A stretch of 64,000 nt of DNA from NCBI RefSeq assembly GCF_003963535.1, contig NZ_CP034539.1, positions 5,270,001 through 5,334,000 on the forward strand, in the 5' to 3' direction. The notes beneath the pieces are model-generated. The model made no database searches, had not been told where the DNA came from, and saw only the letters and a list, made by a program, of their open reading frames with translations. The DNA comes from Streptomyces cyaneochromogenes (lineage in GTDB: Bacteria > Actinomycetota > Actinomycetes > Streptomycetales > Streptomycetaceae). This document shows positions 4,659 through 8,444 of this stretch, piece after piece. Both the position numbers and the translations under genes were made by a program. The first letter of the stretch is position 1. Each line of letters begins with the position of its first letter.

Positions 4659-5852
4659 ATGGGACTGCGAACGAAGACAGCCCTGGTCATCGCCGCCGTC
4701 GCCGCGGTCGTCGCCGCGTTCATCGGGCTCCTGGTGCACCAGCGCACCGCCGACGACCAGCGCGAGGACGCGGAGCGCACGGCCGACGCCCGGCTCGTGG
4801 AGGCGCTGCAGGACCGGATCGCCGGCGTCGAGACGAACGCGCTGGTCAACCCGCGCGCGCTGCCGACCGTCCTGCGCGAGACCGTCACCGACCGGCCCGT
4901 GCGGGCCACTTACCTCCAGGAGAGCGCCCGCGGTGGCCCGGTGATGTGGGCCGCGGCCCGCAGCGGCGCGGACGTCGTCGCCGTACGACGCTCCTACGCG
5001 CCCGAGGTGCGGGCGCTGAACTCCCTGGACCAGGTGCTGCTCAGCGCGGGCGCCGCCGCCGTCGCCCTCGGCTGCGGCCTCGGCATCGCCGTCGCGGCCG
5101 CCGCGGGACGCCGCATCGGCGCCTCCGCCCGCACCGCGCAGCGCATCGCCCACGGCGACCTGACGGCACGCGTGACGCCCAAGGGCAAGGACGAGATCGC
5201 CGAACTGGCCGACGCGGTCAACACCATGGCCGACGCGTTGAGCCTCCGGCTGGAGGCGGAACGCCGGGTCACCGCCGACATCGCCCATGAACTCCGTACG
5301 CCCGTCGCCGGGTTGGTGACCGCCGTCGGTCTCCTGCCCCCGGGCCGGGCGACCGAGCTGGTCAGCGGGGGCGTGGACCAGCTACGCCGACTCGTCGAGG
5401 ACGTCCTGGAAGTGGCCCGCCTCGACGTGCCGGGTGTTGAGCGGGCCCAGCGCGAGGAGGTCTCTTTGGCCGACCTCACTCGCCGGGCCGCGGCGGCGAC
5501 GGGCCGGGAGGTGGAGGTGCGGGTGCGTCGGGACGAGGTCGTGGCCACCGACCCGCGCCGGGTCGAACGGATCCTGGCCAACCTGATCGCCAACGCCTAC
5601 CGGCACGGGGCCCCGCCGGTGACCTTGGAGGTCGACGGGGCCGCGGTACGGGTGTCCGACCGGGGCCCCGGCTTCCCTGCCGACCTCCTGGCGGAGGGGC
5701 CGCAACGCTTCCGCACGGGGGCGCGGGAGCGGGGTACGGGCATCGGGCTGGGCCTGACCATCGTCATGGGCCAGGCCCAGGTGCTGGGCGCCCGGGTGAC
5801 GTACGAGAACCTCGCGGAAGGCGGCGCTCAGGCCACGGTCGACCTGACGTAG
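4659..5852 (+). CDS. Sensor histidine kinase, CseC-like
   Basis: 397 residues from the ATG at 4659. TM1 spans about 8-26, an extracytoplasmic sensor 27-125, and TM2 126-149. A HAMP domain follows (RRIGASARTAQRIAHGDLTARV), then a HisKA dimerisation helix with His210 in IAHELRTP. The ATPase domain has the N box (LIANAYRHG), G1 (DRGPGFP) and G2 (GTGIGLGL). It partners with the regulator eight bases upstream. The last 25 bases overlap the convergent DUF397 gene. No sigE-like sigma gene adjoins, unlike the canonical cse operon. Confidence 0.92.
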   Translation: MGLRTKTALVIAAVAAVVAAFIGLLVHQRTADDQREDAERTADARLVEALQDRIAGVETNALVNPRALPTVLRETVTDRPVRATYLQESARGGPVMWAAARSGADVVAVRRSYAPEVRALNSLDQVLLSAGAAAVALGCGLGIAVAAAAGRRIGASARTAQRIAHGDLTARVTPKGKDEIAELADAVNTMADALSLRLEAERRVTADIAHELRTPVAGLVTAVGLLPPGRATELVSGGVDQLRRLVEDVLEVARLDVPGVERAQREEVSLADLTRRAAAATGREVEVRVRRDEVVATDPRRVERILANLIANAYRHGAPPVTLEVDGAAVRVSDRGPGFPADLLAEGPQRFRTGARERGTGIGLGLTIVMGQAQVLGARVTYENLAEGGAQATVDLT

Positions 5853-6103
5853 CCGATGAAGGAGGCGTAGGCCTCCGGCGAGAGGGTGAGGGTGCCGACC
5901 TCGGGGTTCTTGGAGTCGCGGACGGCGAGGCGGGGGGTGAGGTCGGCTACCTCGACGCATTCGCCGCCGCTGGTGCCGCTGTATGAGGACTTGCGCCAAG
6001 CGACCGAGCCGAGCGGAGCGCACTCCACGCAGTCGCCGCCGCTGGTGCCGCTGTAGCTGGACTTACGCCACGTCGCGGCCTTCAGCTGCTTGCTGGTGTC
6101 CAT
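5828..6103 (-). CDS. DUF397 protein with an internal duplication
   Basis: 91 residues. The DUF397 signature WRKSSYSG occurs twice: WRKSSYSGTSGGDCVEC (residues 12-28), then WRKSSYSGTSGGECVEV (36-52) followed by the normal tail LAVRDSKNP and an F-x-x-x-V C-terminus. DUF397 proteins are small partners of HTH/DUF5753 regulators in Streptomyces, and here the partner overlaps by 41 bp upstream. The second copy carries the complete domain; the first is an extra N-terminal module. The 3' end overlaps the histidine kinase gene. Confidence 0.9.
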   Translation of the reverse strand: MDTSKQLKAATWRKSSYSGTSGGDCVECAPLGSVAWRKSSYSGTSGGECVEVADLTPRLAVRDSKNPEVGTLTLSPEAYASFIGYVRSTVA

Positions 6104-6911
6104 AGCGTTCCTCCATCACGCGGGCGATCAGGTCGGCCGACTCATCCGGTGAGAGGGCGGCGGCCTGCAAGCGAGCGTAACCGACCGAACGCTCCCTGAT
6201 TACTTCCGGGTTGGCGGTCATATGGCCTTGGGCGTAGCTCTCGCAGTAGAGGAGATCGGGGTGCTCGTCGAAGCGCAGGAGGTTGAACGACCCCATCATC
6301 CCGGTGTGCGGGCCCGCGGAGTATGGCAGCACCTGGATGTGCACCCACTGGTTGGTCCGGAAGCTCAACAGGTGGGCGAGTTGATCACGCATGACGCCTC
6401 GGTCGCCGACCATCCGGTACAGCACGGACTCGTCGAGGATCACCCACAGAGCGGGCGGCTTCTCGCGCTCCAGGATGCGCTGCCGTTCCAGGCGGGCGGC
6501 GACCATCTCCTCGACCTTGTCCGGGTGATCCACGCTCAGCAGCGCTGCCGCGTACTCCCTCGTCTGCAGCAGCCCGTACACCAACTGGCACTGGTACGTG
6601 GAGATGTAGGTCGCCTTCGCCTCCATGTCGGCGTACGGCTGAAACCACGCCGGCAGCTGACTGCGCAGTACCAGCCCCACCAGCCGCGAGAACATCCCGT
6701 CCGTCACCAGCGCCGCGTCCACGCGTTCGGCGAAGGCCCTCGTCGGGACCTTCAGCGTGGTCTCGATCTGGCCGATCAACGACCCGGTGCAGTAGAGGAT
6801 CGAGCCCAACTGCTTCAGCGTCAGCCCCGCTTCCTCCCGCTTCCTCCTCAGCTCCCAGCCGAAGTAGTCCAGCGGAGAAGCCGTGGGATCGAGTTCACGA
6901 ATGTGGGCCAA
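6063..6911 (-). CDS. HTH/DUF5753 (Scr1-type antitoxin-like) transcriptional regulator
   Basis: About 282 residues if it starts at the TTG at 6911, giving MAHIRELDPTASPLDYFG, the usual family N-terminus; a GGGGGTGG stretch lies upstream. Residues about 18-75 are an Xre-type helix-turn-helix (LRRKREEAGLTLKQLGSILY, TGSLIGQIE). Residues 95-275 match DUF5753 (YISTYQCQLVYGLLQTREYA, WVILDESVLYR, VHIQVLPYSAGPH, SFNLLRF). Such regulators act with DUF397 proteins as developmental or antitoxin-like pairs. The frame stays open upstream, but only this segment resembles the family. Confidence 0.85.
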   Translation of the reverse strand: MAHIRELDPTASPLDYFGWELRRKREEAGLTLKQLGSILYCTGSLIGQIETTLKVPTRAFAERVDAALVTDGMFSRLVGLVLRSQLPAWFQPYADMEAKATYISTYQCQLVYGLLQTREYAAALLSVDHPDKVEEMVAARLERQRILEREKPPALWVILDESVLYRMVGDRGVMRDQLAHLLSFRTNQWVHIQVLPYSAGPHTGMMGSFNLLRFDEHPDLLYCESYAQGHMTANPEVIRERSVGYARLQAAALSPDESADLIARVMEERYGHQQAAEGRDVA

Positions 6912-7055
6912 GGCGTGCCACCCCCAAGCGAGTTGACGCTGCGCGTCGTTGCGTCCGGTCTGTAGCTGAGGGTAACCGCGCGAATTCGCATTGGTGATGT
7001 GAATCGTGAAAACAAACCGATCGCGCCCCGGCACCGCCCCTGTTACCGTCGCCCC

Positions 7056-7112
7056 ATGAAGCGCGCCAACCCGTCTCTCACGACGACGCCGGACCCCGTC
7101 CCGGCGCGCTGA
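7056..7112 (+). CDS. Putative leader peptide with three consecutive Thr codons
   Basis: An 18-codon ORF, MKRANPSLTTTPDPVPAR, ends 17 bases before a terminator-like hairpin and 84 bases before the threonyl-tRNA synthetase paralog. Codons 9-11 are ACG ACG ACG. A TACCGT box at 7044-7049 could be a -10 element placing the transcript start near the ATG, so the leader may be leaderless. Bases 7087-7092 and 7101-7106 form a perfect 6-bp stem inside the ORF. The arrangement matches ribosome-mediated attenuation by Thr-tRNA shortage; no experimental evidence is visible. Confidence 0.55.
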   Translation: MKRANPSLTTTPDPVPAR

Positions 7113-7129
7113 CAGCTGAGCGAATCCGA

Positions 7130-7158
7130 AGCCCCGGGGCGAGTACCCCGGGGCTTTG
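7130..7158 (+). promoter_or_regulatory. Attenuator-like terminator hairpin before the ThrRS paralog
   Basis: Perfect 10-bp stem agccccgggg (7130-7139) with ccccggggct (7146-7155), loop cgagta, followed by TTTG. It lies between the Thr-rich mini-ORF and the synthetase start. I could not identify a convincing alternative antiterminator beyond a 5-bp pairing of 7094-7098 with 7135-7139. Confidence 0.6.
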
Positions 7159-7168
7159 TCGTGGGTGC

Positions 7169-7316
7169 TCGTCCGCCACGTACTGGAGGAGCAGCCATGC
7201 ACGACCACCGCCGCCTCGGCCGCGAACTCGACCTCTTCGACACCGACCCCCTGATGGGCGCGGGCCTGCCGTACTGGCTGCCCGACGGCGCCGTCGTCCG
7301 CCACGTACTGGAGGAG
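7169..7316. repeat. 23-bp perfect direct repeat: RBS region duplicated inside the coding sequence
   Basis: Bases 7169-7191 are identical to 7294-7316. The first copy ends with the Shine-Dalgarno GGAGGAG of the synthetase gene. The second copy encodes VRHVLEE (residues 34-40) of the same gene. The copies are 125 bp apart. Confidence 0.9.
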
Positions 7317-8444
7317 TACATCCGCGAAGCCGAACGGCAGGCCGGCTATCGCCACGTCTACTCGCCCGTGCTCGGCAAACGCGAGCTGTACGAGATCTCC
7401 GGGCACTGGGACCACTACAGCGACGACATGTTCCCGCCGATGAAACTGGGCGCCGAGGAAGTCGTCCTGCGCCCCAGCCTCTGCCCCCACCACGCCCTGA
7501 TCTACCGCTCCCGCTCCCACAGCTACCGCGAACTACCTCTCCGCATGGCCGAGTTGGGCGGCATGTACCGCTCGGAGCTGTCCGGAGTCCTGGGCGGTCT
7601 GACCCGCGTCCGCGCGATCCACCTCAACGACGCCCATATCTTCTGCACCCTGGACCAGGCCGTGGAGGAGGCCCGGGCGGCCCTCCAGCTCATCGCCCGC
7701 GCGTACGCCGACCTCGGCATCCAGGCCGTACGCCACCGCCTCTCCCTCCCCGGCGAGGGAGGCAAGTACGTCGCCGACCCCAAGCTGTGGCAGCGAGCTA
7801 CCACCCTCCTCCGCGAGGTTCTCGACGGCTCCGGCATCCCCTACGAGGCAGCCGAAGGCGAGGCGGCCTTCTACGGCCCCAAGATCGACGTCCAGATCGC
7901 CGACCCGTCCGGCCGCGAGGCGACCCTCTCCACCGTCCAGATCGACTTCCACCAGCCCGAACGCTTCGACCTGCACTACATCGGCCCCGACGGCGCCAAG
8001 CACCGCCCGGTCATGGTGCACCGCAGCATCATCGGCAGCGTGGAGCGAGCCGTCGCCCACCTGATCGAGCAGCACGGCGGCGCGTTCCCGGCCTGGCTGG
8101 CCCCCGTGCAGCTGCTGATCCTCCCCGTCTCGGAGGCGCAGGTCGAACCGGCGCAGAAGCTGCTGCGCAGGGCCCTGGACCAAGGCCTGCGCGCGGAACT
8201 CGCCGGCCCGGAGCTCGGCACCCTGGGCGCCCGTGTCCGCGCGGCCCGCCTCGTGCCGTACCAGGCGGTCATCGGGGAGCGGGAGGCGGAGGCGGGCGGG
8301 GACCTGGTGGCCGTACGGCTGCGGGACGGGCGGCGGCCGGGGGCCGTACCCGGGGCGGAGCTGGTCGCCCGGATCGCCGCCCGCGTCGCGGCCCGGGGCT
8401 CCGAACTGTGGGACGGGGGTCCCCTCGCCGGACGGCCTGCGTAA
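7197..8444 (+). CDS. Short threonyl-tRNA synthetase paralog (catalytic plus anticodon-binding domains only)
   Basis: 415 residues, ATG with GGAGGAG five bases upstream. It lacks the N-terminal TGS and editing domains of housekeeping ThrRS (about 640-660 residues). The class II core is present: motif 2 around YRSE (Arg125) and the three zinc ligands Cys96 (SLCPHH), His147 (NDAHIF) and His275 (VMVHRS). A C-terminal anticodon-binding domain starts at WLAPVQLLILP. Where canonical enzymes read WQCGT in the Thr pocket, this reads ATLST (242-246). It resembles the second, short ThrRS of other streptomycetes; it may be a stress or inhibitor-tolerant isoform (inference). Probably controlled by the upstream leader and hairpin. 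Confidence 0.88.
   Translation: MHDHRRLGRELDLFDTDPLMGAGLPYWLPDGAVVRHVLEEYIREAERQAGYRHVYSPVLGKRELYEISGHWDHYSDDMFPPMKLGAEEVVLRPSLCPHHALIYRSRSHSYRELPLRMAELGGMYRSELSGVLGGLTRVRAIHLNDAHIFCTLDQAVEEARAALQLIARAYADLGIQAVRHRLSLPGEGGKYVADPKLWQRATTLLREVLDGSGIPYEAAEGEAAFYGPKIDVQIADPSGREATLSTVQIDFHQPERFDLHYIGPDGAKHRPVMVHRSIIGSVERAVAHLIEQHGGAFPAWLAPVQLLILPVSEAQVEPAQKLLRRALDQGLRAELAGPELGTLGARVRAARLVPYQAVIGEREAEAGGDLVAVRLRDGRRPGAVPGAELVARIAARVAARGSELWDGGPLAGRPA

Follow-up and report, generated by a model that had tools for sequence, protein, structure and literature searches.

Within the window, that is, the whole 64,000-nucleotide stretch of Streptomyces cyaneochromogenes DNA that was analysed, a gene for a short threonyl-tRNA synthetase (ThrRS), thrS2, lies downstream of a promoter, a small Thr-codon open reading frame and a series of RNA segments, numbered 1 to 6, with alternative pairing partners (Table 1). 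A full-length ThrRS with an extra N-terminal region is encoded elsewhere in the same genome. Adjoining the promoter on the opposite strand is a divergent gene for an XRE-type helix-turn-helix regulator (6063-7003, minus strand), followed by a small DUF397-like gene (5828-6103, minus strand) in which the internal repeat WRKSSYSGTSGG occurs twice; both were named by inspection, and the two kinds of gene form a common pair in Streptomyces. An exact 23-nt direct repeat, TCGTCCGCCACGTACTGGAGGAG, is present at 7169-7191, where it holds the thrS2 Shine-Dalgarno sequence (SD), and again at 7294-7316 within the thrS2 coding region. Since the near relative L034 carries no upstream copy, the repeat seems to have arisen by recent local copying, which probably rebuilt the spacer between segment 5 and the SD in this strain.

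Table 1. Features of the thrS2 leader region (positions within the window; pairings and energies are predicted)
Feature	Position	Strand	Description
GAAAAC, likely equivalent of the WblC motif (GAAAWY)	7008-7013	+	3 nt farther from the -10 element than in most relatives; weak
-10 element TACCGT	7044-7049	+	6 nt ahead of the leader ATG; leaderless start expected
Leader ORF thrL	7056-7112	+	MKRANPSLTTTPDPVPAR, then stop; 18 codons; ATG at 7056, TGA at 7110-7112
Three Thr codons, ACG ACG ACG	7080-7088	+	Double as 5' side of hairpin 1:2
Hairpin 1:2	7081-7111	+	Segment 1 CGACGACGCCGG, segment 2 CCGGCGCGCUG; overlaps the Thr codons; -14.1 kcal/mol
Anti-hairpin 2:3 (candidate)	7098-7140	+	GUCCCGG 7098-7104 with CCGGGGC 7134-7140, plus the 7106-7110 region
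Hairpin 3:4	7127-7158	+	13 pairs, 7127-7139 with 7146-7158; loop CGAGUA 7140-7145; -28.0 kcal/mol
Segment 3L	7137-7145	+	GGGCGAGUA; hairpin loop and top of 5' arm; mimics the SD flank; pairs with 7166-7174
Segment 5	7166-7174	+	UGCUCGUCC; anti-SD strand; pairs with 3L or the SD region
Segment 6	7184-7199	+	Contains the SD, GGAGGAG 7185-7191, and the start codon of thrS2; both masked in hairpin 7160-7199, -22.8 kcal/mol
thrS2, short threonyl-tRNA synthetase	7197-8444	+	415 aa; tRNA-synt_2b (catalytic core) and anticodon domains only; begins 38 nt after hairpin 3:4

The leader ORF had been recognized in an earlier note on this DNA as an 18-codon frame with three consecutive ACG codons ahead of the synthetase, and it is present as described, a short Thr-codon ORF directly 5' of a short ThrRS gene, which is what marks the thrL leader of Streptomyces thrS. 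Two sets of relatives were used for comparison, namely 215 Streptomycetaceae upstream regions that carry the leader core and the hairpin together and, for the leader itself, 213 leaders with a recognizable promoter. In all 213, thrL is in frame with a leaderless start located 7 to 17 codons ahead of the core. The run consists of three Thr codons in 209 leaders and two in the other 4; the note had held that its reading would fail if the Thr run and hairpin were not conserved, and with at least two Thr codons in 213/213 relatives this objection falls away. The possible leaderless start is supported as well: a TANNNT element stands 6 to 7 nt upstream of the leader start in 212/213 relatives, as expected for transcription starting at the leader's ATG, and thrL of S. 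lividans TK24, a leader 5' of thrS with the peptide MKRVRPFLETTPGFVPAR, is reported as leaderless by RNA sequencing in the published account of that element (PMC8079986). Because the leader peptide of L028 is identical to MKRVRPFLETTPGFVPAR, the window leader is the same element as the published thrL. Taken together, the sequence comparisons provide good support for Thr-codon control of thrS2. One locus, L117 (G041:C225), has a short-ThrRS gene for which no leader ORF was found but retains the hairpin, segment 5 and SD, and may have lost its sensor part through a natural deletion.

Leader and hairpin are conserved far beyond chance. A short ThrRS is encoded in 75/150 sampled genomes of the genus and 108/200 of the family, and the leader was located 5' of the gene in all of the first 110 loci (L001 and L005-L113). 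Within Streptomycetaceae, the core ACGACGCCGG-n-GTCCCGGCGCGCTGA (AC.ACGCCGG-n-GTCCCGGCGCGCTGA) is frozen at the nucleotide level, and it is unique to this locus within its own genome. The core was also identified in 55/394 genomes of a class sample, spread over five families, four of them outside Streptomycetaceae, where it lies 5' of short ThrRS genes; in a sample of 148 genomes of the class, it was present in 21/21 genomes with a short ThrRS.

Consensus folding recovers two hairpins, 1:2, running through the Thr codons, and 3:4. Folding of the RNA in both ribosome states, a check proposed in the earlier note, predicts a switch between structures: when the RNA is masked up to 7096, as by a ribosome on the Thr codons, 2:3 is the predicted minimum (-18.6 kcal/mol), and with a ribosome on the stop codon 2:3 is absent and 3:4 remains. 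Thus, although no clear antiterminator had been seen previously, a candidate is present, formed by 7098-7110 with 7130-7140. We infer the 2:3 pairing from complementarity and folding alone; this complementarity is conserved but invariant across relatives, and since their pairs hardly vary, both 1:2 and 2:3 lie outside the reach of covariation. Two further pairings were considered and set aside. One, between the Thr run (7080-7090) and the hairpin's 3' foot (7152-7162), was dropped, as the downstream CGUCGU is not conserved; the other, a hairpin joining the KRA codons (7060-7067) to the end of the leader (7103-7110), was rejected as an essential part, its 5' partner being lost in several relatives, including L186, L189 and L193.

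Hairpin 3:4 stands out in folding (z-score of -4.0 for 7120-7165) and in the alignment, where 94% of cells are paired and 8 pairs have changed on both sides (0/500 shuffles). The perfect 10-bp GC hairpin of the earlier note is therefore real and conserved, if slightly longer than claimed at 13 pairs. The TTTG read there as a tail following the hairpin does not hold up: these bases (7155-7158) form the 3' foot of the stem itself, where UUUG pairs with CGAA, and the sequence after the stem is TCGTGGG, with no U-tract. In two loci, L097 and L112, the loop is missing and nothing of the hairpin is left but a palindrome around GAAGCCCCGGGGCTT, reflecting either real loss or an assembly error.

Downstream of hairpin 3:4, segment 5 can pair either with the hairpin's loop region, 3L, or with the SD region in segment 6, and the relatives argue for both pairings. 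Across 199 distinct sequences, the 3L:5 duplex energy was -15.0 with true partners versus -13.96 (sd 0.10) with swapped partners (0/2000), and a second run of the comparison gave -15.11 versus -13.88 (sd 0.10; 0/2000); in 72 sequences with unusual loops, the corresponding values were -15.07 and -13.26 (sd 0.21; 0/5000). When 40 diverse sequences were aligned, 91.3% of 3L:5 cells were paired and 6/9 pairs had changed on both sides (0/500 shuffles), and sliding the segments by 1 to 3 columns reduced pairing to 42-56%. For 5:6, the duplex energy was -14.79 versus -12.85 with swapped partners (sd 0.17; 0/2000) in an alignment-free test, and these shuffle counts, like those above, are not probabilities, since the sequences compared are related rather than independent. 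On the MAFFT alignment, 5:6 gave no excess over shuffles, probably because the SD register differs, and its support thus comes from the alignment-free test only. Four controls (loop:SD, spacer:segment 5, spacer:SD and segment 5:reversed SD) yielded no comparable gain; a reversed-loop control yielded a smaller gain (z of -4.8), owing to the partial symmetry of the segments.

Individual loci illustrate the same dependence, with all three elements having changed together in L131 (loop GCAAGUG, segment 5 CACUUGC, SD flank GCAAGG), in L180 (loop GCGAACG, segment 5 CGUUCGC, SD flank GAACGCC) and likewise in L263, from another family. The leader, hairpin 3:4, 3L:5 and 5:6 are all supported by these sequence comparisons. 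A pseudoknot in which loop and segment 5 pair while the full hairpin persists seems unlikely, as the 9 bp would extend into the stem top with no connecting nucleotides.

What the leader controls depends on how hairpin 3:4 is read. It might be an intrinsic terminator, with 2:3 as its antiterminator and the SD hairpin incidental, as in a classical transcription attenuator; the layout of 1:2, 2:3 and 3:4 is of the trp type, and the predicted folds fit both ribosome positions. Terminators lacking U-tracts are, moreover, found among those of Streptomyces, and one relative, L142 (G102:C1), carries a true U-tract, CTCTTTTTTG, after the hairpin, making that locus a natural candidate for transcription attenuation. 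It is, however, the only one: at least five T within the 8 nt after the stem occur in just 1 of the 215 relatives, and a terminator scan on the thrS2 strand of the window detected no terminator-like site. A different family contributes nine loci (L234-L239 and L242-L244) that have lost the lower stem of 3:4 and retain the loop, segment 5 and SD flank. The published passages on S. lividans thrL likewise describe one hairpin with no U-rich stretch and call termination "not clear" (PMC8079986). A purely transcriptional device would also leave the covariation of loop and segment 5 unexplained, and we regard it as unlikely. An SD paired in the default fold and a competing loop:segment 5 pairing, two marks of an SD-masking translational attenuator, are both found here, and because the SD-masking hairpin and its competitor loop are conserved, the element's conserved action appears to be on translation, with transcription termination an optional addition. 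Of the earlier proposal of ribosome-mediated attenuation, the leader, the leaderless start and the conserved Thr run and hairpin are supported, the terminator reading finds only partial support, and a terminator followed by TTTG is not supported as described.

We consider it reasonably probable that the thrS2 leader is a ribosome-mediated attenuator that senses how fast the ACG codons are read and acts mainly on the SD. With Thr-tRNA available, the ribosome would reach the stop codon and cover segment 2, allowing 3:4 to form; the loop would then be locked within the hairpin, and segment 5 would pair with the SD region and mask it (OFF). A ribosome stalled at the ACG codons would instead melt 1:2 and free segment 2 to pair with segment 3, so that the released 3L could capture segment 5 upon its transcription and the SD and start codon would emerge unpaired (ON). 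As 2:3 refolding would also remove 3:4, termination could come under the same control in lineages with a U-tract, such as that of L142. We infer the response to a stalled ribosome and the ON/OFF direction from the predicted folds. A broader reading, to which we assign a little less than an even chance, would make this a class-wide actinobacterial attenuator assembled from the parts of a transcription attenuator, in which the "terminator" has been recast to hide and release an SD look-alike loop, strand exchange relays the position of the ribosome on the Thr codons to the synthetase start, and termination is kept in a few lineages.

Folding also reveals where the attenuator model is under strain. 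In RNAs ending at segment 5, the probability of 3L:5 exceeds 0.5 in 165/178 sequences with 2:3 in place and in 8/178 with a ribosome at the stop codon; 2:3 and 3L:5 share bases 7137-7140. As soon as the RNA extends through the SD region, equilibrium favors 5:6 in the majority of sequences, that of the window among them. For the complete window RNA, the OFF fold has a predicted energy of -56.7 versus -42.7 with 2:3 forced, and 5:6 persists when it is forced; at full length with 2:3 forced, 3L:5 formed in 65/178 sequences, and mean SD accessibility was nearly unchanged (0.257 versus 0.257). Since the OFF fold wins at equilibrium, the switch would have to act cotranscriptionally, with the ON state as a kinetic trap, and the model's weakest point is the need for the ON fold to last long enough for initiation.

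Alternatively, the leader may lack Thr specificity and react to slow ribosomes of whatever cause, subinhibitory antibiotics being one example, and so serve as a general translation stress sensor within the WblC response. WblC is a regulator of resistance to translation-targeting antibiotics, thrS2 is among the WblC-activated genes (Table 1 of PMC7157823), and the published WblC motif, GAAAWY, lies 3 nt upstream of the -35 element (PMC7157823). Most relatives' promoters have an A-rich G-A-A-A-A block at the position of this motif, at -33 to -28 relative to the -10 element, and the GAAAAC of the window is a weak probable counterpart. SCO3778 is listed among the targets bound by sigma-E under ethanol (PMC10771440). 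A sensor of that general kind is distinctly unlikely, as it does not account for a Thr run in 213/213 leaders or for the gene itself being a Thr synthetase. The identity of the codons is not in itself proof of Thr sensing, however, since the ACG codons are also part of the 1:2 stem. The Thr runs of the relatives comprise 634 ACG codons and 1 ACC, and as these ACG bases are paired in 1:2, RNA structure is reason enough for this near-exclusive choice and a tRNA-isoacceptor preference need not be invoked.

The two remaining explanations are far less probable. Arrest of the ribosome by a nascent TTTPxxVPAR peptide would fit the conserved C-terminus that the leaders encode. The core codons for Pro (CCG), Val (GTC), Pro (CCG), Ala (GCG) and Arg (CGC), however, are almost invariant at synonymous sites, in contrast to the free variation of codons in the 1:2 loop; peptide endings VPAPR, VPAP, VPVR and VPVC are tolerated; and L128, which is frameshifted after the Thr codons, retains the RNA core, indicating that the constraint is on the RNA rather than on the peptide end. 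Since the peptide end varies and the RNA does not, peptide arrest was rejected. E. coli ThrRS is under autogenous control through a tRNA-like leader fold, and binding of the short ThrRS to its own leader through such a fold would suit the kind of gene product and the RNA structure at the SD, but it is just as improbable, given that no tRNA-like arm was seen and that an Rfam search of the window and region found no family at gathering score, T-box included (chance matches only, E up to 5).

The leader itself is already known as S. lividans thrL, which, as published, shares with the window an 18-codon leaderless ORF with Thr codons, an ending of TTPxxVPAR, a hairpin and the same downstream gene (PMC8079986). 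The thrL passages of that account describe a leader and one hairpin, without 2:3, loop:anti-SD pairing, SD masking or wider conservation (PMC8079986); what is new here is the core, frozen in Streptomycetaceae and shared with four other families of the class, the candidate antiterminator 2:3, the U-tract-free nature of the hairpin and the dual pairing of segment 5. The mycobacterial polycysteine leaderless attenuators of Canestrari et al. (2020), as summarized in PMC9031893, are similar in having a leaderless short ORF, a codon run and amino acid-dependent ribosome speed in an actinobacterium; they use Cys rather than Thr, and the comparison concerns the leader as summarized there. Transcription attenuators of the trp and thr types share with thrL the leader codon run and competing 1:2, 2:3 and 3:4 structures, but thrL has no U-tract after 3:4 in the window and in nearly all relatives and adds the SD-masking fifth and sixth segments. 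Among other actinobacterial amino acid-related leaders, ileS T-boxes are thought to act by SD masking and the LEU element involves a pseudoknot or alternative fold (PMC1262725); T-boxes differ from thrL in having no leader peptide and sensing the tRNA itself. The 2005 survey that described them reported no Thr element (PMC1262725). Table 4 of the S. lividans account includes other synthetase leaders, alaL, trpL2 and leuL2 (PMC8079986), and the targets of WblC also include alaS2 and trpS (PMC7157823). The loop-to-anti-SD design could also exist at alaL, trpL2 and leuL2.

In sum, this analysis provides a mechanism, open to testing, for a leader that the literature leaves at "termination not clear," and it shows how a leader peptide may act on translation in GC-rich bacteria, which have few U-tract terminators. 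About 200 natural variants with cochanging segments are available, so that each step is open to swaps of natural parts. The element may explain how spare synthetases in the antibiotic-induced WblC set remain silent until needed. On the broader reading given above, an attenuator layered under WblC would leave the antibiotic-induced mRNA to be translated only when Thr-tRNA is short.
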